Under the pieces are notes generated by a model, which did no database searches, had not been told where the DNA came from, and saw only the letters and a program-made list of their open reading frames with translations. 42,842 nucleotides of DNA from a virus. The first letter of the stretch is position 1, and the number at the start of each line of letters is the position of its first letter. Positions 67-34,898 of this stretch are shown piece after piece. The translations under genes were made by a program, and so were the position numbers. The stretch lies in the IMG/VR virus record IMGVR_UViG_3300045115_000083, positions 1 to 42,842 of that record, one strand, 5' to 3'.

Positions 67-127
67 CCCCACCCACCCCCTACAGCCTCGAGGAGGCCAT
101 GCCACCATGCCCGACACCGAGCCGGAA
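1..127. repeat. Terminal redundancy, identical to 42716-42842
   Basis: The first 127 bases are repeated exactly at the end of the window (42716-42842), and both copies fall in the same position between the collagen-like gene and the endolysin gene. The simplest reading is a circular (or circularly permuted) molecule opened at an arbitrary point, unit length about 42,715 bp. A length of exactly 127 also matches a common assembler k-mer, so this is probably an assembly overlap and not a physical terminal repeat. Confidence 0.95.
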
Positions 128-1138
128 GTCCTCGACCCGGCCGCCCTGCCCGACGAAGTCGACGACTTCGACGCGTGTGAGGACCTCGACCCCGACGCGC
201 CCGCCGGCATCGTCGGACTGGTCGGCCCCGGCCAGCGGCCCATCACCGGCATCCTCGCTGCGTTCCAGAAGTGGGGCGTGAAGTACCGGGTGATCTCGGG
301 CTGGCAGACCCGCGGACGGCCACCGTCGTCGGGGCCGTTCAACCCCCAGGGGCTGCTGGTCCACCACACCGGGTCGACGTCGTCAGCTGCCAACCCAGCT
401 GGTGCCCTCGGCATCGTCACCAACGGCCGCTCCGACCTGCCCGGTCCCCTGTGCCAGATCAGCACCGGATTCGACGGAGTCACCACCGTCGTCGCGGCCG
501 GTCGGGCCAACCACGCCGGACGGATGCGCGCGATGGGACGCGTCCCGGCAGGCGACGGCAACGCCCAGCTCGTCGGCAACGAGGTGCAGACCAACGGCAC
601 CCAGCAGATGCCCAAGGTCCAGTACGACGCCGTCGTGCTGTCCTCGGCGGCCGTGCTCGACATGCTCGGCGTGACCGTGGCCGAGCTCGGCCTGCACAAC
701 ACGACCTCGCTCGAGGGCAAGTGGGACCTGGGTGCCGGCAACGGCAAGTCCGGCGTCCCCTACTCCATCACCAAGTTCCGTGCCGACGTCGCGGCCCGCC
801 TGGCCGCCGGCCCCAACCCGTCCAAGGAGGACGACATGCCCACACCCAAGGAGCTCTGGGACTACAAGGAGATCAACCCCGTCAACGGCAAGCCCGGTGC
901 CGTCGGCGACATGCTCCGCACCACCATGAAGGACACCTTCTACAGCCGCGCCGAGCAGGCCAAGAACCACGCCGAGACGATGGGCATGCTGCGCGCCATC
1001 GCGAAGGGCAAGGGCCTGACGCAGGCCGAGCTCGACGCCGTCAAGGCCGCCGCCGAGGCAGGCACGAAGGCCGCGCTGGCCGAGTCCGTCGTCGTCCAGG
1101 GCGACGTCACCGTCACGCAGACGTCGAAGGGAGCGTGA
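107..1138 (+). CDS. Endolysin, N-acetylmuramoyl-L-alanine amidase
   Basis: A 343-residue peptidoglycan hydrolase expected to cut the MurNAc-L-Ala bond during lysis. An acidic N-terminal stretch (about 1-35) precedes an Amidase_2/PGRP-type domain (about 50-225). The expected zinc ligands are visible: His86 in LLVHHTGS, His136 in NHAGRM and His197 in LGLHNTTS, with Glu159 in VGNEVQ as likely catalytic acid. Residues about 230-343 form a separate C-terminal part, starting MPTPKELWDY, probably for wall binding. No signal peptide is seen, so release should depend on the holins. The ATG at 107 lies 10 nt after GAGGAGG (90-96); an ATG at 99 is out of frame. It sits between the collagen-like gene and a four-TM holin-like gene. 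Confidence 0.9.
   Translation: MPDTEPEVLDPAALPDEVDDFDACEDLDPDAPAGIVGLVGPGQRPITGILAAFQKWGVKYRVISGWQTRGRPPSSGPFNPQGLLVHHTGSTSSAANPAGALGIVTNGRSDLPGPLCQISTGFDGVTTVVAAGRANHAGRMRAMGRVPAGDGNAQLVGNEVQTNGTQQMPKVQYDAVVLSSAAVLDMLGVTVAELGLHNTTSLEGKWDLGAGNGKSGVPYSITKFRADVAARLAAGPNPSKEDDMPTPKELWDYKEINPVNGKPGAVGDMLRTTMKDTFYSRAEQAKNHAETMGMLRAIAKGKGLTQAELDAVKAAAEAGTKAALAESVVVQGDVTVTQTSKGA
836..1138 (+). CDS. Internal translation product of endolysin: C-terminal part alone (100 aa)
   Basis: Inside the endolysin gene, in frame, an ATG at 836 follows a near-perfect Shine-Dalgarno AAGGAGG with 6 nt spacing (AAGGAGG at 824-830). It would give a free 100-residue C-terminal fragment, exactly at the border between amidase and C-terminal part. 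In several Gram-positive phages such internal starts supply free cell-wall-binding domains that assemble with the full-length enzyme. Here this is inference from the SD strength and domain position. Confidence 0.6.
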   Translation: MPTPKELWDYKEINPVNGKPGAVGDMLRTTMKDTFYSRAEQAKNHAETMGMLRAIAKGKGLTQAELDAVKAAAEAGTKAALAESVVVQGDVTVTQTSKGA

Positions 1139-7948: not shown

Positions 7949-8215
7949 ATGGCAGGCACGCGAACGACCATCGAGATCAACGGTTACGCACTCAGGGAAC
8001 TACGCGTACGGTCGGGACTGGGAGTAGCCGAACTGGCCGCAGAGGTCGAAGTCCAACGCCCGTACATCGCCAAGATCGAACTCGGGCACTCGCGCCGCGT
8101 GTCACCAAGGGTCTTCGCCCGACTCGTTCTCGCGCTGGCGATCCAGGACCGTCGAGCCCTGCTTGCCAACCCGTACGCCGCCGACGTCACCACTGAAGAC
8201 CTGGTCCCGGCATGA
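7949..8215 (+). CDS. Cro-like XRE helix-turn-helix protein
   Basis: 88 residues from ATG 7949 (GTG 7943 is possible). Almost the whole protein is one HTH_XRE domain: ALRELRVRSGLGVAELAAEV, then VQRPYIAKIELGHSRRVSPR, then VFARLVLALAIQD. First gene of the rightward early operon and divergent from the repressor-like gene, so the likely role is Cro-like control of the lytic choice. Its stop overlaps the next start (ATGA at 8212). Confidence 0.75.
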   Translation: MAGTRTTIEINGYALRELRVRSGLGVAELAAEVEVQRPYIAKIELGHSRRVSPRVFARLVLALAIQDRRALLANPYAADVTTEDLVPA

Positions 8216-11837: not shown

Positions 11838-12244
11838 CCACGACCCACAACCGCGCCCGCGCCGAGCGGCTGCTCCGCGAGCACCAGGGCGACGACCTTC
11901 GCACCACGTCGACGTCGGTCTCCTGCACCTGTGGGGTGACAATCCCGGTGCACCCTGCGGCGATCGCCCGCCACATCGTCGGCCAGCTGCTGCTGGCGGA
12001 CCTGCTCCGACCGGACCCGACCGGGCCGCTGCCGCTGATCGCGTTGCAGGACATGGGCCCCGGTGAGGTTGTGTTCGACCGGGGCGGCCAACCGTGGATG
12101 TGTTGCGGGTTCGTTGACGACACCAGTGAGGCGTTGTGGGTGTCGTACGCCGAGGGCGTTCCGGACGAGCTGTGCACCTCTGACCTGCACGCTGAGCGGT
12201 CGCCGTTGGCCACGGACCGGGCGAAGGCGGGGTGCGGGTCGTGA
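11834..12244 (+). CDS. Hypothetical early protein
   Basis: 136 residues, ATGA overlap. Has SCTCG near residue 30 and a strand-rich middle (GEVVFDRGGQPWMCCGFVDD). The second half resembles a small beta domain. No family recognised. Precedes the tandem ParB genes. Confidence 0.5.
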   Translation: MTTTHNRARAERLLREHQGDDLRTTSTSVSCTCGVTIPVHPAAIARHIVGQLLLADLLRPDPTGPLPLIALQDMGPGEVVFDRGGQPWMCCGFVDDTSEALWVSYAEGVPDELCTSDLHAERSPLATDRAKAGCGS

Positions 12245-13263
12245 GGCATGTGATGACCCCTCAGATGGAAGCCGAGATCCTGCGCCTGATCGTGCAGGGC
12301 AAGATGTTGGGCGCGATCGCGCAGCAGCTGGCGCTGTCGTTGTCGCGCGTGGACACGGTCGCACGCGAGCATGGCTGGCCGGACATGGCCGCGGTCGGCC
12401 GCTCCCTCGAGGAGCTCGACGAAGACAACGACGCTTCGACGTTGGAGCCGACTAACCCTGACCCCGGCGCGCAACACCTTCCTGACGGCAAGACCTTGCA
12501 GATGGTGCCGGTCGATGAGTTGCACCCGGACCCGGACAACCCGCGCGAGAAACTGACGGGGATCGAGGAGCTCGCCGAGTCGATCGACGCCCAAGGCCTG
12601 ATCCAGCCGATCGTGGCTCGCCGCCGCGGTGGCCGTCTGGTCGTGGTTGCCGGGCACCGCCGCCTCGCCGCGGTGGAGCTCCTGCAGTGGGCCACCGTCG
12701 AGACGGTTATCACCAAGGACATGCCGTCCGACGACGTGCTGGCGAAGATGCTCGTCGAGAACGGTCAGCGCGCCGGCCTGGACCCGATCGAGGAGGGCCG
12801 CGCCCTGGCTCGTCTGAAGGCCACCACCGGCAAGTCCAGCGCGGAGGTGGGCCGAGCAGTCGGCCGTTCCTTGTCGCACGTCGAAGGCCGCCTGCGTCTG
12901 CTGTCGTTGCCGCCGAGCGTGCAGGAGAAGGTCCGCACCGGACAGATGAACATCGGTGAGGCCGTCGAACGATCCCGCGCGGATTCCGGTCGTGCGCAAG
13001 GCCCACGGTCCAGCTACCGCTTCCACCTCGGCGACGGTCACCCGCTCGCATCCAAGGCCCGCGCCCGATGCCGGCAGATGCACCGGCAGACGCGGAAGGT
13101 CGGCGCCGTCGCGTGCGGCGAGTGCTGGGAGACGGTGATCCGCGCGAACGAGCGGGAGACCCTGCACAACCACTCAGCACAGACGGGCCGGTGCGCCCTG
13201 TGCCAGACCCCAACTGATGACACGGATACGTCAGCAGACCCGACAGGAGACCAAACCCGATGA
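12241..13263 (+). CDS. ParB-domain protein 1
   Basis: 340 residues from GTG 12241 (GTGA overlap). An N-terminal helix-turn-helix-like part (about 5-50) precedes a ParB/Srx-type domain: DELHPDPDNPREKL (92-105), VVVAGHRRLAAVE (134-146) and ENGQRAGLDPIEEGRAL (173-189), then a second DNA-binding helical region and a C-terminal Cys/His part (CGECW ... CALCQ). GHRRLAA and the following box are the conserved ParB nucleotide-binding signatures. In phages such proteins act in DNA binding, partition or as nucleases; which one is not visible. No ParA partner is present. Confidence 0.75.
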   Translation: MRHVMTPQMEAEILRLIVQGKMLGAIAQQLALSLSRVDTVAREHGWPDMAAVGRSLEELDEDNDASTLEPTNPDPGAQHLPDGKTLQMVPVDELHPDPDNPREKLTGIEELAESIDAQGLIQPIVARRRGGRLVVVAGHRRLAAVELLQWATVETVITKDMPSDDVLAKMLVENGQRAGLDPIEEGRALARLKATTGKSSAEVGRAVGRSLSHVEGRLRLLSLPPSVQEKVRTGQMNIGEAVERSRADSGRAQGPRSSYRFHLGDGHPLASKARARCRQMHRQTRKVGAVACGECWETVIRANERETLHNHSAQTGRCALCQTPTDDTDTSADPTGDQTR

Positions 13264-14861
13264 GCCCCAACGCAACTGACACGGCACAGGTGCAGTACCT
13301 CGACCTGAAACCGTCCCTGATCGCGCAGCACCCGGACAACCCGCGTCGCGACGTGGGTGACATCTCGGATCTGACGGCGTCCGCGAAGGAACGCGGCATC
13401 CTCGAGCCGTTGATCGTAGCCCCGGCGTACGACGGCATGACGAAGTCGTTGGGAAAGGCCGAGTTCCTGTTGATCGCCGGCCACCGGCGTCTCGCGGCCG
13501 CGAAGAAGGCCCGCCTGTCCACGGTGCCCGTCGTGCTGCGCAACGACTGGACGTCCCGCGGCGACCAGGTGTCCGCGATGCTGATCGAGAACCTGCACCG
13601 CGCCGACCTGTCCCCCATCGAGGAGGGTGAGGGCTACCAGCTGGTCATGGAGGTGGACGGCCTCACCCAGGCCAAGGTTGCCGACCGGGTCCAGCAGCCA
13701 GCGAAACGCGTCCGCGACCGGGTGAAGCTCGTCAAGCTCCCCAAGGGTGTGCAGGACCGCATCCACGACGGCCAGGTCACCCTGACCGAAGCGATCGAGG
13801 CCGCGGCGTTCGCGTCCGACGGGGACACCATGGCCCGCCTGGAGAAGGCCGCCGGCACCCGCAACTTCGCCGTGGAGCTCGAGGCCGCCAAGGCCCGCCG
13901 CAAGGCCGAGCAGGACTGGCGCTCCCTGCTGAAGCAGATCCGCGACGCCGGCTACGTCGAGCTCGAACCAGTCAAGCAGGACCCGGCCGCCGAACCCGGC
14001 ACCCGCGTCGACGGCGCCCGCCAACGCAGGAGCATCCCCGGCCTGGGCGGCGGCTACGCCTGGCGTCTTGAAGACGCATGGGCTGAGGAGAAGCGCCTCC
14101 ACGCCGACTGCCCACACAGGGCCGTCGTCATCACGGATGAGAGCTCCCCCGGCCGCGGCCACACACGCGGCCTGGAGTTTCTCTGCACCAAGCCCGAGGT
14201 CCACGCGGCACAGGCCCAGACCGGCCGCGACAACACCCGCCACGTGGTCGACACCAGCCTCCCGGAGACGGACGAGGAACGAGCCGCACGCCAAGCCCAG
14301 GAGGCGGCCCGCGCCGAGCAGGAGCGGGACCGCGCGGACCTGCAGTCGAAGCTCGACGCGGCCGCGACGGTGCGCCGCCGTTGGGTCTCGGACGTGCTGC
14401 ACCACAAGACCGGCGACGTCGACCTCGCCAAGCGGCTCCTGCTCGAGCACGCCCGAGCCGACTGGACCGAGAGCAACATCATCGGCTGCGCCACGAGCAT
14501 CTGGGAGCGGGGCGCGCTGCTCGCGTGGTTGCGCATCGACGAGGACGTCCCCGGCGAGGACGTCCCTGCCGTGGTCAGTGACAAGCTCAACAAGCTCACC
14601 CTGCCGGCGCTCGCGATGCTGACCCGCATCGTGTGGTTCGCAGACGTGGAGCGTGGCATGACGGAGCCCCACCGCGAGTGGCCCGCCACGGACGAGGACG
14701 TGGACTGGTTCCGGATCCTCACGGACGAGTTCGCGTACCCGTGGTCGGACTTCGAGCGGGACCACTTCGGCCTCGACGCGGACGGGCATGTCCCCTCGGT
14801 CACCGAAGAGGACGACGCTGACGTGCCGGCTGACGACGGTGACGCGGAGGCGGGCCAGTGA
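13260..14861 (+). CDS. ParB-domain protein 2, with long C-terminal extension
   Basis: 533 residues, ATGA overlap with ParB protein 1. The N-terminal third has the same ParB signatures: AQHPDNPRRD (22-31), LLIAGHRRLAAAKK (70-83), ENLHRADLSPIEEGEGYQ (110-127), followed by a helix-turn-helix (QAKVADRVQQPAKRVRDR). The C-terminal half is different: a Cys/His patch (HADCPH), an acidic/Arg coiled coil (EERAARQAQEAARAEQERDR), and a helical module of unknown family. Similar two-part ParB-like proteins occur in actinophages. Possible roles are DNA binding in replication or gene regulation. Confidence 0.75.
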   Translation: MSPNATDTAQVQYLDLKPSLIAQHPDNPRRDVGDISDLTASAKERGILEPLIVAPAYDGMTKSLGKAEFLLIAGHRRLAAAKKARLSTVPVVLRNDWTSRGDQVSAMLIENLHRADLSPIEEGEGYQLVMEVDGLTQAKVADRVQQPAKRVRDRVKLVKLPKGVQDRIHDGQVTLTEAIEAAAFASDGDTMARLEKAAGTRNFAVELEAAKARRKAEQDWRSLLKQIRDAGYVELEPVKQDPAAEPGTRVDGARQRRSIPGLGGGYAWRLEDAWAEEKRLHADCPHRAVVITDESSPGRGHTRGLEFLCTKPEVHAAQAQTGRDNTRHVVDTSLPETDEERAARQAQEAARAEQERDRADLQSKLDAAATVRRRWVSDVLHHKTGDVDLAKRLLLEHARADWTESNIIGCATSIWERGALLAWLRIDEDVPGEDVPAVVSDKLNKLTLPALAMLTRIVWFADVERGMTEPHREWPATDEDVDWFRILTDEFAYPWSDFERDHFGLDADGHVPSVTEEDDADVPADDGDAEAGQ

Positions 14862-23768: not shown

Positions 23769-25073
23769 GTGGCGCAGGACGACCCCACACCTCCCCCGCT
23801 GCCCAAGGGCGGCCGCTCACAGGTCGCGCAGCGCGAGGTCGGGTATGCCGCGAACCCGACAGACGGACGCGACTGGTGGCAGGTCGGCGCCCTCGACGAC
23901 GAGACGACCCCGGAGCTGCAGTGGCCGCTGAACCTGGCGGTGTACGACGCGATGCGCAAGCAGGACGCGCAGGTCGGGTCGGTGCTACGGGCTGTGACGT
24001 TCCCGGTCCGTTCCACGAAGTGGCGCATCGAACCCAACGGCGCTCGCGATGACGTCGTCGAGCATGTCGCGCGGGATCTTGGTCTGCCGATCAAGGGCCG
24101 TGAGGACATCGCCCCCGGCCGCATGCGGGACCGCTTCTCCTGGGACGACCACCTGCGCCACGCCCTGCTGAAGCTGGTGTTCGGGCACATGGTGTTCGAG
24201 CAGATCTACCGCATCGACGAGGTCACCGGGCTGGCGCACTTGCGCAAGCTGGGACCCCGGATGCCGCGCTCGATCGCGAAGTTCAACGTGGCCCGTGACG
24301 GCGGCCTGGTCTCTATCGAGCAGAAGGCCACCATGGACGGCCCAGGCAGCAAGAACATTGTGCTCCCGGTGAACCGGCTCGTCGTCTACGTCAACGAACG
24401 TGAGGCCGGCAACTGGCAGGGCATCAGCGCTCTCCGCACGGCGTACAAGAACTGGCTCCTGAAGGACCGGCTCCTGCGCATCCAGACCACAACCTTGGAC
24501 CGCAACGGGATGGGCGTTCCCTGGTTCACCGGCGCCGAGGGCGCCGACCAGAAGGCGATCGACGCCGGACAGCAGATCGTGGAGGACCTGCGCAGCGGCG
24601 ACAACTCGGGCGCTTCCGGCCCGCACGGCTCCATTCTGAAGCTTCTTGGTGTCGAGGGTGAGCTACCCGACGCCGGCAAGCCGATCCAGTACCACGACGA
24701 ACAGATCGCCCGCGCGGTGCTGGCCCACTTCCTGAACCTGGGCACCCAGACCGGCTCTTGGGCTTTGGGCACCACGTTCGCTGACTTCTTCACCCAGTCG
24801 CTGACCGCGGTCGCGCAGGACATCGCGGACGTCACTACCGCCCACGTCGTCGAGGACCTCGTCGACATCAACTACGGCGAGGACGAACCGGCCCCGAAGG
24901 TTGTGTTCGACGACATCTCATCGAACTCGGCGGCGCTCGCGCTGGCCATCAAGGCGCTCGTCGATGCGGGCGTCCTCACCGCCGACGAAGGCCTCGAGGC
25001 GCACATGCGCCTGGGTCTCGGCTTGCCGACGAAGACCAGCGAAGGAGCAGATCGTGACCCGTCAGCTGCCTGA
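23769..25073 (+). CDS. Portal protein (DUF935-like)
   Basis: 434 residues from GTG 23769, with GAGGAGG ending 8 nt upstream; GTG 23760 is possible but overlaps that site. The order DAMRKQDAQVGSVLRAVTFP, then TKWRIEPNG, then ALLKLVFGHMVFEQIYRID and the QYHDEQIARAVLAHFLNLG helix fits the DUF935/Mu gp29-like portal family. It forms the dodecameric ring at the prohead vertex. Located between terminase and protease as expected. Confidence 0.85.
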   Translation: MAQDDPTPPPLPKGGRSQVAQREVGYAANPTDGRDWWQVGALDDETTPELQWPLNLAVYDAMRKQDAQVGSVLRAVTFPVRSTKWRIEPNGARDDVVEHVARDLGLPIKGREDIAPGRMRDRFSWDDHLRHALLKLVFGHMVFEQIYRIDEVTGLAHLRKLGPRMPRSIAKFNVARDGGLVSIEQKATMDGPGSKNIVLPVNRLVVYVNEREAGNWQGISALRTAYKNWLLKDRLLRIQTTTLDRNGMGVPWFTGAEGADQKAIDAGQQIVEDLRSGDNSGASGPHGSILKLLGVEGELPDAGKPIQYHDEQIARAVLAHFLNLGTQTGSWALGTTFADFFTQSLTAVAQDIADVTTAHVVEDLVDINYGEDEPAPKVVFDDISSNSAALALAIKALVDAGVLTADEGLEAHMRLGLGLPTKTSEGADRDPSAA

Positions 25074-26442
25074 CACCCGTCCGCACACCGAGGCCGAGTT
25101 CGAGGTTCCCACTCCGCCTCCGGCGCTCGCGCAGGTGCCGCGCCTGCGGTACTGGGGCGACCGTCGCCCGCCGAAGAACCGGGCCGACATGTTCTCGGTC
25201 GCGGTGTCACCACGCAACGCCACGACGGACGACCCTGACCCGGACACCGCCCCGGCCGAGCCGACGCAGTCCGTGGGGAGCGTCGCCACGATCCGCCTGT
25301 ACGGACCCATCGACTCCTGGGGCGGTTGGTGGGGCATCTCAGCGGCCGACGTCAGCGAGGCCCTCGACGGCTTCGGTGACGACGTCGACGAGATCCGTGT
25401 GCGGATCAACTCCCCCGGCGGCGAGGCCTGGGAGGGCATGACGATCCTGAACATGCTCCGCGCCCACCGCGCCAAGGTGGTCGCCGTCGTCGATGGCGTC
25501 GCCGCGTCCGCGGCCTCGTTCATCGCTGCCGGCGTCGAGGAGACCGTCATGTCTCCCGGCACCCAGATGATGATCCACGACGCCAGCAACTTCGCGATCG
25601 GCAACGCCGCGTTCATGCGTAAGAACGCCGAGTTCCTCGACTCCATCTCCGACGCGATCGCCTCGGTGTACACCGGCGCCGCCGGCGGCACCGACCAGCA
25701 GTGGCGGGCCCTCATGGTCGAGGAGACCTGGTACACGGCCAAGGAAGCCACCACCGCAGGCCTGGCCGACCGCGTCGCCGTCGTCCCCGACGCCGGAACC
25801 ACGACCACGGCAGGCGCGAACGACCCCGACCCGTTCGAGGACGTCGAGGACGCCTTCGACCTGTCGATCTACAACTACGCCGGCCGCTCCCACGCGCCAG
25901 CACCCAAGCTGCCGACCTCGTCCGGGGTCGGTACCACGTCTGCGGCCACCGCGGCCGGAGACACCTCACAGGAAGGAGCAGCTGCTGTGTTCAACGACGA
26001 GCAGCTCACCACCCTGCGGCAGAAGCTCGGTGTCTCCGACGACGCCGACGCCGACACCGTGATCGGCGCCCTCGACGAGGCGCTCGCCGAGCGCGCCGAG
26101 ACGACCACGACTGCACCGGGCACGGTCGCCGTCGACGAGGGCAGCCTCGACCAGCTGCGCCGGGACGCCGCAGCCGGCCGCGAGGCCCGCAACGCCCAGC
26201 TCGAGGCCGACCGCGTCGCACTCGTGCGGGACGCGGTCAACGACGGCCGCATCCCCCCGGCCCGCCGCGACCACTGGCTCGCCCAGCTCCGCGCCGACGA
26301 CGAGGGCGCCCGCGCCGCCCTGGCCGGCCTCACCAAGGGCACCATCCCCGTCGACGAGCTCGGCACCGCTGACGCCGCCGACGACAAGTCCGTGAACGAC
26401 CTCTACAACGAGGTCTTCCCCGAGCACCAGAAGGAGAGCTGA
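25054..26442 (+). CDS. ClpP-type prohead protease fused to scaffold
   Basis: 462 residues from GTG 25054 (GAAGGAGC upstream), overlapping the portal gene by 20 bp. Residues about 75-245 are a ClpP/S49-like serine protease: IRLYGPIDSW, VRINSPGGEAWEG (oxyanion loop), GVAASAAS with Ser152, and MMIHDAS with His175. The C-terminal 200 residues are Thr/Ala-rich linker and a helical, acidic scaffold-like part (ending VNDLYNEVFPEHQKES). Such fusions process the capsid, and the scaffold is then removed. An internal start lies at 25987. Confidence 0.85.
   Translation: MTRQLPDTRPHTEAEFEVPTPPPALAQVPRLRYWGDRRPPKNRADMFSVAVSPRNATTDDPDPDTAPAEPTQSVGSVATIRLYGPIDSWGGWWGISAADVSEALDGFGDDVDEIRVRINSPGGEAWEGMTILNMLRAHRAKVVAVVDGVAASAASFIAAGVEETVMSPGTQMMIHDASNFAIGNAAFMRKNAEFLDSISDAIASVYTGAAGGTDQQWRALMVEETWYTAKEATTAGLADRVAVVPDAGTTTTAGANDPDPFEDVEDAFDLSIYNYAGRSHAPAPKLPTSSGVGTTSAATAAGDTSQEGAAAVFNDEQLTTLRQKLGVSDDADADTVIGALDEALAERAETTTTAPGTVAVDEGSLDQLRRDAAAGREARNAQLEADRVALVRDAVNDGRIPPARRDHWLAQLRADDEGARAALAGLTKGTIPVDELGTADAADDKSVNDLYNEVFPEHQKES
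25987..26442 (+). CDS. Nested scaffold protein from internal start (151 aa)
   Basis: GTG 25987 is in frame with the protease gene and has GGAAGGAGC (25971-25979) 7 nt upstream, as strong as any ribosome site here. It gives a free helical scaffold beginning MFNDEQLTTLRQKLGV. This is the same plan as lambda C/Nu3, where the scaffold is also an internal product of the protease gene. Confidence 0.65.
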   Translation: MFNDEQLTTLRQKLGVSDDADADTVIGALDEALAERAETTTTAPGTVAVDEGSLDQLRRDAAAGREARNAQLEADRVALVRDAVNDGRIPPARRDHWLAQLRADDEGARAALAGLTKGTIPVDELGTADAADDKSVNDLYNEVFPEHQKES

Positions 26443-31790: not shown

Positions 31791-34700
31791 GTGGTGAGCG
31801 TGCCGTACCAGGTGGCCACCGCCTACGTCCCCGTCGTCCCGACGTTCAAGTCGTGGAAGCGCTCGGTGCAGGAGACCGCCTCCAGCCCTGACATGCAGCG
31901 CGCCGGCAAGACGGCCGGCGACAACGTCTCGGCCGGGTTCGAGGCCGGCACCTCCCGCCTCAAGGGCCTCATCAAGGGCGCCGTGGCCACCGCCGGCGGC
32001 GCCGCGCTCGCGGCCGCCACCGTGGGTGTGCGCACCGCGGCCGGCATGGAGACCGCGAACATCGCCTTCACCACGATGCTCGGGTCCGGCAAGAAGGCCA
32101 AGACCTTCCTGGATCAGCTTTCGGCGTTCGCAGCCAAGACCCCGTTCGAGTTCCCCGAGCTACAGACCGCCTCGCAGTCGCTGATCTCGATCGGCATCGA
32201 CGCGAACAAGGTCATCCCGATCATGACCACGCTCGGCAACGTCACCGCCGGCATGGGCACTGGCTCCGAGGGCATCAAGCGGGCCACGGTCGCCATCCAG
32301 CAGATGAATGCCGCCCAGCGCATCAGCGCCGAGGACCTCAACCAGCTCCGGGACGCCGGCATACCGGTCTACGAGCTGCTCTCGAAGGCCATGGGCAAGA
32401 GCACCCAGGAAGTTGCCGCGTTGGCCCAGAAGGGCAAGCTCGGCAAGGACGCCCTCGACGCCATGATGAAGGCGCTCGAGAACGGGACCGGTCTCGAACG
32501 GTTCAACGGCATGATGGAGAAGCAGTCGACGACGTTGGCTGGCCTCTGGGCGACGCTGCAGGACACCTTCCGCATGGGCATGGCCCAGGCGATCCAGCCG
32601 GCGCTTCCCCTGCTGAAGGACGGCCTCGCCGCCGGCATCGAGCTGCTGAACGCCCAGATGCCGGCCCTGCAGGCCGGCATCAAGGGTGTCGTCGAGCAGG
32701 CCCCGCAGGTCGCCGACCGGGTCCGCGGCATCTGGACGTCAGCGAAGGCCCTGTACGACCTGGTCGTCGGCGGAGATTACAGCTCCGCCCTGCGCGACGC
32801 GTTCGGGTGGGAGGAGGACTCAGCACAGGTCGACTGGATCCTCGACATGCGTGACGCCCTGTCCGGCCTGTTCGACCAGGTCCGCTCCGCCGATGCCGGC
32901 GCCCTCCTCACCCAGGTCAAGGACGCCGTCAGCGACCTTGTCCGGGCCGCACCCGCCGCCAAGCCCACCCTCGACCTGTTCGGCAAGGGCCTGCAGTTCG
33001 CCGGTGACCATGCCGACCTGCTCGCCAAGGCCCTCCCCGTCCTGGTGGCCGCGTTCGTTGCGTACAAGAGCGCACAGGCCGCGAACGCCGTCGCCGGCCG
33101 CAACTCCATCGTCGGCTTCGCCGCCCAGCTCGGCACCACCATCAGCCTGACCGTCGCTACCCGGGCGCTCGCCAAGGCTGAGGACTCGGTCCTTCAGTCC
33201 CGTACCCGGCTCCTGGGAGCAACCGTCGCGGCCACCGGGGCCGAGAACGTGTCGCTGGCAACGAAGATCCGCTCCACTGCGGTCACCGCAGCCAAGACCG
33301 TGGCCGAGAAAGCAGCTGCGCTCGCAACCAGGGCGTACACGGCAGGGCAGTGGCTGCTGAACGCGGCCCTGACGGCGAACCCGATCGGCCTGGTCATCCT
33401 CGCCCTGGTCGCTCTTGGCGCGGCGGTCGTGCTCGCGTGGAAGAAGTCCGAGACGTTCCGCGCGATCGTCACGGCCGCCTGGAACGGCATCAAGGCTGCG
33501 GCGTCGGGCACCGTGTCGTGGATTCGGGGCACCGCTTGGCCGTGGCTTCGTCAGGCCTTCGACTGGATCGCGGGCAAGGCCCGGTGGTTGTGGGACAAGG
33601 GCGTCAAGGCGCCGCTGACGAGTTTCCGTCGCGGGATCGACGTGATCCGCGATGCCGCGGGCGGGCTCAAGGACGCGATCGCGAAGAAGTGGTCCGGCCT
33701 GGTGTCGGCGATCTCCGGCCCTGTCGGTCAGGTCCTGTCATGGGTGTCGCGCAACTTCATCACTCCCATCAACGCGATGCTCGCCAAGGTGGGCATCGGG
33801 TTCCGGCTGCCGACGTTCTCGCTGCCGTCGACGTCGGTCGGTCGCTCAACCAAGGGCGGCCTGACCAGGGCGTCTGGTGGCGTCCTGCCGGGGTGGTCAC
33901 CAGGGACCGACGACATGCACTGGTGGTCCCCGACCTTGGGCTCCTTGTCGTTGTCCGGTGGTGAGGCGATCATGCGCCCGGAGTGGACGCGAGCGGTCGG
34001 CAAGGGCTTCGTCGACCGCATGAACGCGGCCGCCCGCACCGGCGGTGTGGGCGCGGTCCGCAAGGCCATGGGCTTCGCTGGTGGCGGGATCATCGGCAAG
34101 ATCGGTGGCTTCGCCTCGGACATGGCGGGGCTGCTCACCGACCCCAGGAAGCTGCTGCGGACTCTGCTGCCGGACGTGTCGAAGGCGTTGAACGGCAACG
34201 TGTTCGGCCGCGCCATGAGCGGCACCGTCGGCAGGATCATCGATGCTCTCGCGAAGAAGATCAGCGCCGGCATCACCGCCGCGCCGGCCGCGGGGTCTGG
34301 CGTGCAGCGCTGGCGGGCCGTGGCGTTGCAGGCGCTGTCGATGGCCGGCGCGCCCGCCTCTCTCCTGCCGCTGCTGCTTCACCGCATGCAGGTCGAGTCC
34401 GGCGGCAACCCGCGCGCGATCAACCTGTGGGACTCCAACGCCAAGGCCGGCATCCCCTCCATGGGGCTGATGCAGACCATCCTGCCCACGTTCAACGCCT
34501 ATGCCGGCCCCTTGCGCTCCCGCGGTGTCTGGGACCCGCTGGCGAACATCTACGCCTCGATCAAGTACACGCAGTCGCGGTATGGCGGGAACTTCGCGCG
34601 GGCGTGGTCTGGCACGGCTGGGTACCGCCGCGGCGGCGTCTTCGACACCCCGATGAGGCCCGTGTCCCCGCCGCTGCTGTTCGACTCCGGCGGAACCCTG

Positions 34701-34898
34701 CCACCGACCCGGCCCGGGGAGTTCATCCCGGTCCAGAACTTCACCGGCGCCCCGGAACGGCTGCGACGTGTCGACGGCCCGGGCGGCGGCGACGTGTACC
34801 AGCTGTACGGGGTGAAGTACGAGGCCGCGGCCGAGGTCGCCGCGAACCTTTCGTTCGCGCGGCGCGCAGCCCGCCGCGCCGGAGCCTACGGAGGGTGA
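31791..34898 (+). CDS. Tape measure protein with lysozyme-like C-terminal domain
   Basis: Up to 1035 residues; GTG 31791, 31794 or 31800 are possible starts. Ala/Lys-rich helical body with several hydrophobic stretches, then from about residue 860 a soluble-transglycosylase-like unit: RMQVESGGNPRAINLWD with catalytic-type Glu, GLMQTILPTFNAYAG, and ANIYASIKYTQSRYGG. The length predicts a tail of about 150 nm. The domain should open the wall during DNA entry. Confidence 0.9.
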   Translation: MVSVPYQVATAYVPVVPTFKSWKRSVQETASSPDMQRAGKTAGDNVSAGFEAGTSRLKGLIKGAVATAGGAALAAATVGVRTAAGMETANIAFTTMLGSGKKAKTFLDQLSAFAAKTPFEFPELQTASQSLISIGIDANKVIPIMTTLGNVTAGMGTGSEGIKRATVAIQQMNAAQRISAEDLNQLRDAGIPVYELLSKAMGKSTQEVAALAQKGKLGKDALDAMMKALENGTGLERFNGMMEKQSTTLAGLWATLQDTFRMGMAQAIQPALPLLKDGLAAGIELLNAQMPALQAGIKGVVEQAPQVADRVRGIWTSAKALYDLVVGGDYSSALRDAFGWEEDSAQVDWILDMRDALSGLFDQVRSADAGALLTQVKDAVSDLVRAAPAAKPTLDLFGKGLQFAGDHADLLAKALPVLVAAFVAYKSAQAANAVAGRNSIVGFAAQLGTTISLTVATRALAKAEDSVLQSRTRLLGATVAATGAENVSLATKIRSTAVTAAKTVAEKAAALATRAYTAGQWLLNAALTANPIGLVILALVALGAAVVLAWKKSETFRAIVTAAWNGIKAAASGTVSWIRGTAWPWLRQAFDWIAGKARWLWDKGVKAPLTSFRRGIDVIRDAAGGLKDAIAKKWSGLVSAISGPVGQVLSWVSRNFITPINAMLAKVGIGFRLPTFSLPSTSVGRSTKGGLTRASGGVLPGWSPGTDDMHWWSPTLGSLSLSGGEAIMRPEWTRAVGKGFVDRMNAAARTGGVGAVRKAMGFAGGGIIGKIGGFASDMAGLLTDPRKLLRTLLPDVSKALNGNVFGRAMSGTVGRIIDALAKKISAGITAAPAAGSGVQRWRAVALQALSMAGAPASLLPLLLHRMQVESGGNPRAINLWDSNAKAGIPSMGLMQTILPTFNAYAGPLRSRGVWDPLANIYASIKYTQSRYGGNFARAWSGTAGYRRGGVFDTPMRPVSPPLLFDSGGTLPPTRPGEFIPVQNFTGAPERLRRVDGPGGGDVYQLYGVKYEAAAEVAANLSFARRAARRAGAYGG

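Follow-up and report, generated by a model that had tools for sequence, protein, structure and literature searches.

A conserved in-frame internal start predicts two products from an endolysin gene of a temperate phage

The endolysin gene in the window (the whole 42,842-base virus record analysed here) contains a Shine-Dalgarno (SD) sequence followed by an in-frame ATG in the linker between its enzyme part and its C-terminal module, and this arrangement is conserved at the DNA level in relatives. Comparison with these relatives strongly supports the original prediction that two products would be made from the one gene, and suggests that the internal start is used in the infected cell. We consider it likely that this is an in-frame two-product endolysin gene, in which the free module would assemble with the full-length enzyme.

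The internal start in the endolysin gene

PHROG matches to integrase, terminase, portal, head protease and tape-measure protein mark the window as a temperate tailed phage. Its endolysin consists, in order, of an acidic N-terminal stretch, an Amidase_2 domain (residues 79–192; 34.3 bits against a Pfam cut-off of 26), a linker and the C-terminal module (Table 1). AAGGAGG and an in-frame ATG had been noted at the end of the enzyme domain, and both were confirmed there; the spacing, first given as 6 nt, is 5 nt. The ATG is codon 244 of 343 and opens a short product of 100 residues. In a structure model of the endolysin, which has low confidence around the C-terminal module, the last helix of the enzyme part covers residues 221–234, and residues 240–267 have pLDDT values below 50, as for a linker. 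Because Amidase_2 ends at residue 192 and is followed by this last helix and then by the low-pLDDT segment, the internal ATG lies in the linker.

Table 1 Features of the endolysin region in the window
Feature	Position	Strand	Basis
SD GAGGAGG of the endolysin's own start at 107	90–96	+	sequence; duplex energy −11.6 kcal/mol
Endolysin gene, 343 aa	107–1138	+	ORF; PF01510; PHROG 880 endolysin, E 4e-39
Internal SD AAGGAGG	824–830	+	sequence, duplex energy
Spacer ACGAC, 5 nt	831–835	+	sequence
Internal in-frame start codon ATG, Met244	836–838	+	sequence; start codon at same position in relatives
Nested ORF, C-terminal module, 100 aa + stop, predicted helical	836–1138	+	ORF, structure model; no known domain
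Holin-like gene downstream, 178 aa	1143–1679	+	PHROG 9752 holin, E 7e-22

AAGGAGG was found only twice in the 42,842 bases, at 824 and 30155. SD:anti-SD pairing at 836 amounts to −11.2 kcal/mol, between the values of the gene's own start (−11.6) and the holin (−9.1), and is the best among the 16 internal in-frame start codons of the endolysin gene. Shuffling of codon order placed at least one AAGGAGG 4–10 nt ahead of an internal ATG in 1.3% of trials, or in 2.4% with any start codon allowed; shuffles among synonymous codons only, with the protein kept, retained the site in 86%. Taken by itself, the window is weak evidence, because K-E-D-D-M leaves little freedom in the DNA that encodes it. The site is only modestly above chance there, and the question therefore passes to the relatives.

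The nearest of these, a lysin on an IMG/VR contig (L001), is 76% identical to the window endolysin over residues 1–245, where the match ends. Its joint is the same 21 nt, TCCAAGGAGGACGACATGCCC, and an unrelated module follows. Of the 187 residues that are identical in the two proteins, 134 use the same codon, and in 15 of 181 runs of seven every codon agrees; identical codons at the joint are nothing special between these genes and were rejected as evidence. The acidic N-terminal extension (EPEVLDPA..DDFD.CED.DPDA; window 107–230) is common to L001 and absent from the other aligned relatives.

Several further features of the window were recorded. The ORF of the head maturation protease (24901–26442, 513 residues; PHROG 2976 over residues 125–511) has a mechanical start inside the end of the portal ORF and carries no AAGGAGG internal start. 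Two adjacent, slightly overlapping ORFs (12232–13263 and 13260–14861) both match ParB-like partition PHROGs. The best PHROG of the tape-measure protein (31791–34898) is the endolysin family phrog_971, and the protein perhaps includes a wall-cutting domain.

Start codons and joints among lysin relatives

Lysin linkers were collected without motif bias. Two enzyme-only alignments that did not include the joint gave 160 loci, the best 80 of at least 571 and the best 80 of 136 lysin relatives; 157 loci were complete, 3 with fewer than 30 residues after the enzyme were dropped, and merging of identical linkers left 137 unique ones. The SD core was defined as AGGAG or GGAGG after the enzyme domain, and the start codon had to be in frame 4–10 nt further on. 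An SD core is present in 97 of the 137 linkers and absent from 40, and 93 of the 97 have the start codon (4 do not). SD-plus-start is missing, by this criterion, from 44 linkers, some of which lead into helical or beta modules with a degenerate or absent SD.

In 94 linkers, the main frame was searched for its best SD, irrespective of what came after it, and the offset to a start codon was counted. A start codon lies 5 nt after this SD in 76 linkers and 8 nt after it in a further 13; the 23 other offsets examined gave 0–14 of 94. At 5 nt, the codon is ATG in 51 linkers, GTG in 22 and TTG in 3, encoding Met, Val and Leu, respectively. Val at this position is always written GTG (22/22), compared with 1112 of 2919 Val codons (38% expected) in these genes (p = 6e-10), and Leu is always written TTG (3/3), a rare codon used for 80 of 2689 Leu residues. 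Since Val is all GTG and Leu all TTG there, selection acts on the start codon, not on the amino acid. Clustering at 70% identity gave 67 groups (47 with ATG, 18 with GTG, 2 with TTG), and clustering at 50% gave 33. The SD is read in the K-E/E-E frame in 89 of 93 linkers and in the G-G frame in the other 4; with one frame so prevalent, frame independence is thin and gives no frame-free proof. At the level of sequence, the start-codon pattern across relatives bears the mark of a start codon that is used.

A natural control is provided by the A5 lysins (e.g., L311, L325, L342, L267), in which AAGGAGG encodes part of Q-F-K-E-V within the enzyme and no start codon follows. Because of these start-less copies, the heptamer can be said to arise from coding alone. 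Among lysins of named phages, 5 of 20 have a site under a relaxed rule and 15 have none. In OnionKnight, Dagobah and Secretariat the site is at the joint, before a helical-looking module; in Sham it has a spacing of 10. Percastrophe has it before a tail resembling that of the SD-less Dennebes, and is therefore a counterexample or a product of chance.

IMG/VR contains the exact joint, AAGGAGGACGACATGCC, in 41 stretches, 21 of which have a frame open for at least 80 codons upstream. Of these 21, fourteen hit Pfam models of lytic enzymes with E 0.01 or better (L021 and L026 among them lie below Pfam's own cut-off, and L038 was scanned as L001, which is on the same contig). They comprise amidases, one CHAP, one GH25, one Rv2525c-like glycoside hydrolase (GH) and one VanY-type peptidase. 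The amidases L024, L036 and L041 (the last unscanned) are near copies in the enzyme part; L027, L042 and L045 have the joint and no Pfam match, and look peptidase-like by eye. The joint is also present in L013 (a head protease–capsid protein), L047 (an ERF protein) and L018. As amidase, CHAP, GH25, Rv2525c-like GH and VanY lysins all carry it, the joint is common to unrelated enzymes. A control string built from the same codons in scrambled order, AAGGACGAGGACATGCC, occurs in 13 stretches, most of which repeat one or two small proteins; one of the 13 has at least 80 open codons upstream, and none was recognised as a lysin, as judged by eye rather than by Pfam scan. From the GH25 genes of 296 genomes, 27 were picked by size before the joint was looked at. 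Twenty-six of them have at most 29 residues after the domain and no site; the only one with a module (L408) carries AGGAGGACGAC-ATG.

The near-identical lysins L024 (10057–11514) and L041 (9141–10595) differ from L036 (10277–11146, minus strand) in that, after SPQHY, the module enters another frame and reads on to about 270 residues, which looks like a small indel in the module.

A pattern based on MPLT was also searched, and 80 of at least 120 matches were examined; 36 of the 80 have at least 80 open codons upstream. By eye, the sites in open frames are mostly in capsid protease/scaffold genes, and only three (L019, L074, L089) are in lysins. In these capsid protease/scaffold-like genes, AAGGAGG stands 5 nt before an internal in-frame ATG (KEGD/MPLTPEEK), as in L065 at 8019–8041; similar loci are L069, L071, L080, L094, L095, L105, L119 and others. 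L013 (3326–4594) combines Peptidase_S78 and Phage_capsid with a KEDD/MP joint. Such internal starts recall the nested scaffold gene Nu3 within lambda C.

The C-terminal module

Searched up to E 1, Pfam had no family for the 100-residue module of the window; PHROG gave nothing at E 0.001 (only weak matches at E 0.09–0.3), and PDB sequences gave nothing better than E 0.57. These negative results are compatible with wall binding as well. Searches with the module alone gave no close relative in IMG/VR and only an irrelevant match in named phages; stand-alone copies of two module types had no match in named phages. A search of a genome collection returned one distant relative only. The module is modelled with helices at residues 265–302 and 306–327 of the full protein, at low to medium confidence and with no jelly roll. 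Its heptad score (z = 1.1) was reached by 69 of 500 shuffles, and a coiled coil was rejected as not significant by this score.

Modules related by position form a large helical class and a beta class. BLASTP clustering of 110 modules gave clusters of 86, 17 and 2 and five singletons, the window grouping only with L026; an earlier classification by all-against-all phmmer was over-linked and was dropped for the BLASTP clusters. With every third module sampled, the mean heptad z is 2.2 for the helical class (24 modules) and −0.4 for 7 beta modules. The beta class, represented by L280, was modelled at pLDDT 90 as a C1q/TNF jelly roll, with Z = 13.3 to C1q over 123 residues. Its matches (Foldseek, VIA-align) include C1q heads, adiponectin, collagen NC1, the spore proteins BclA and ExsF, TNF-like lectins and phage spike knobs; trimers of this fold are represented among the matches by adiponectin, C1QTNF5 and collagen NC1. 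Modules of a class with known trimers, placed behind a private start codon, would fit an assembly role, although a shared fold shows no function.

Classical wall-binding domains were looked for in 94 modules, namely those of the window, L026 and 92 of the 93 SD-bearing linkers (L184, which runs on in another frame, was excluded). Pfam found PG_binding_1 or LysM in none of the 94, compared with PG_binding_1 in 12 and LysM in 2 of the 44 modules without SD-plus-start (Fisher p = 2e-8, with the 12 and the 2 taken as different members). A home-made signature for peptidoglycan-binding tails was too loose and was not used. The original prediction had named the free piece a wall-binding subunit. That role is not supported for the window module, which has no Pfam or PHROG match at the thresholds used, belongs to a set of 94 devoid of PG_binding_1 and LysM, and is helical in the model. 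It had also named homologues lacking the internal SD and ATG as evidence against two products: relatives with this kind of module have them, whereas lysins tailed with PG_binding_1 or LysM do not.

Proposed mechanism and relation to known lysins

In the mechanism that we propose, ribosomes starting at 107 would make the full 343-residue amidase, and others starting at 836 from AAGGAGG would make the free 100-residue C-terminal module. Less certainly, the free module would associate with its counterpart at the C-terminus of the full-length enzyme, yielding an oligomeric base that carries a single enzyme head or a few of them; such a complex could have raised avidity or switched activity, as in Enterococcus and Clostridium lysins. 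Given the published two-product lysins CTP1L, LysIME-EF1, LysP7951 and Ms6, the short product is very probably made, and the same analogies somewhat favour its assembly with the full-length enzyme. The free C-terminal domain of CTP1L belongs to the active complex and internal-site mutants are less active (PMC4777826), LysIME-EF1 is one full chain with three free domains (PMC7098653), LysP7951 has a 1:5 composition and is active only as a complex (PMC9430671), and mutants of Ms6 indicate that both products are needed for full lysis (PMC3111421).

It would be unlikely, in our judgement, that translation does begin at the internal site but that the free product is a genuine wall binder, acting by multiplying binding sites or by competing for them. 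In published group 2 lysins the short product is described as a cell-wall-binding domain (PMC9430671, PMC7098653), C1q/TNF-fold proteins include lectins, and the C-terminus of Secretariat, which has AGGAG plus ATG at that junction, was given a peptidoglycan-binding role from the structure-database hit 4BXJ, in a report on Gordonia phages (PMC9671378). Set against this are the predicted helical nature of the window module and the absence of a known wall-binding family from all 94 SD-bearing modules, when 12 PG_binding_1 and 2 LysM occur among the 44 SD-less ones. The hetero-oligomeric lysin originally envisaged remains the best reading, but its free piece looks like an assembly module rather than a wall binder.

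The joint might instead be the scar of an old fusion of two genes, in which the SD and start codon of the second gene survive unused and the linker is kept as an acidic peptide. The module boundary does coincide with the start codon, and the residues K/E/Q-E-D-D are themselves conserved; a relic would drift, yet the start codon is kept across the 67 groups at 70% identity while the residue varies between Met, Val (22/22 GTG) and Leu (3/3 TTG), which makes this origin improbable. Least probable is chance, whereby a GC-rich genome would write K-E-D-D-M as AAGGAGGACGACATG regardless of need. Retention of the site in 86% of synonymous shuffles and the start-less AAGGAGG of the A5 lysins are what chance would give; the start-codon pattern across relatives is not, and neither is the outcome of the scrambled control AAGGACGAGGACATGCC, with no recognised lysin among its 13 stretches. 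For the family, comparison of sequences thus leaves chance largely refuted. We return to the two-product gene with an assembling module as the preferred reading.

The closest known systems are the group 2 two-polypeptide endolysins (Lys170, LysIME-EF1, CTP1L, CD27L, CS74L, LysP7951), with one catalytic domain and an internal start before the C-terminal domain. Like them, the window gene is one ORF with an SD and in-frame start between enzyme and C-terminal part, from which a short product of about 10 kDa is expected. In the terms by which PMC9430671 defines group 2, its catalytic domain is N-terminal, its internal start has its own SD outside conserved domains, and the start has kept its place in homologues (L001, and 93 of 97 SD-bearing linkers among 137 unique ones). 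Unlike in group 2, the relatives are in actinobacterial phages, the module matches none of the known wall-binding domains, the start codon accompanies modules when they are exchanged and the second product is so far predicted; a complex of both polypeptides is itself true of some group 2 members only. Ms6 LysA (Lysin384/Lysin241, PMC3111421) and LysPollywog (PMC9430671) also come from actinobacterial phages and have an internal SD and start inside lysA, but their short product keeps a catalytic domain, as in group 1, whereas that of the window has none by Pfam. Split lysins, such as the amidase and M23 genes of Gordonia phages, likewise place lytic parts on separate chains, but as two non-nested genes in place of one gene with a nested ORF. 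The trimerising C1q/TNF-fold domains of C1q, adiponectin, collagen NC1 and phage spike knobs share their fold with the sister module class behind the same start joint; the window's own module, in contrast, is predicted to be helical. It also shows no match to the C-terminal domains that characterise PG_binding_1 and LysM lysins.

Internal starts in endolysins are already known and common. A survey in PMC9430671 predicts them in 51.5% of endolysin genes and may well include Streptomyces genes. Selection on the start codon, one joint across unrelated enzymes and near absence with classical wall binders were not found in the literature searched (mainly open literature); these three aspects are apparently new. 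So far, internal starts in endolysin genes have mostly been shown one by one. Here the start codon is visibly selected across many lysins of actinobacterial phages, is common to unrelated enzyme types and is linked with modules that are not classical wall binders.

Modules are exchanged whole, with the break at this start codon, so that SD, start codon and module act together as a single cassette that can be swapped. We tentatively speculate, with somewhat less than even confidence, that the unit shuffled in actinobacterial phages is a translation cassette of SD, start codon and an oligomerising module of coiled-coil-like or C1q/TNF-like type. Whatever enzyme is fused in frame upstream, be it an amidase, GH25, CHAP or peptidase, would at once become a hetero-oligomeric lysin with free base subunits, which would replace the usual peptidoglycan-binding domain. 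If the two-product reading is true, many annotated actinophage lysins would be wrongly recorded as single chains, expression from recoded genes would yield lysins short of a needed subunit, and the joint would offer a natural exchange point between lysins.
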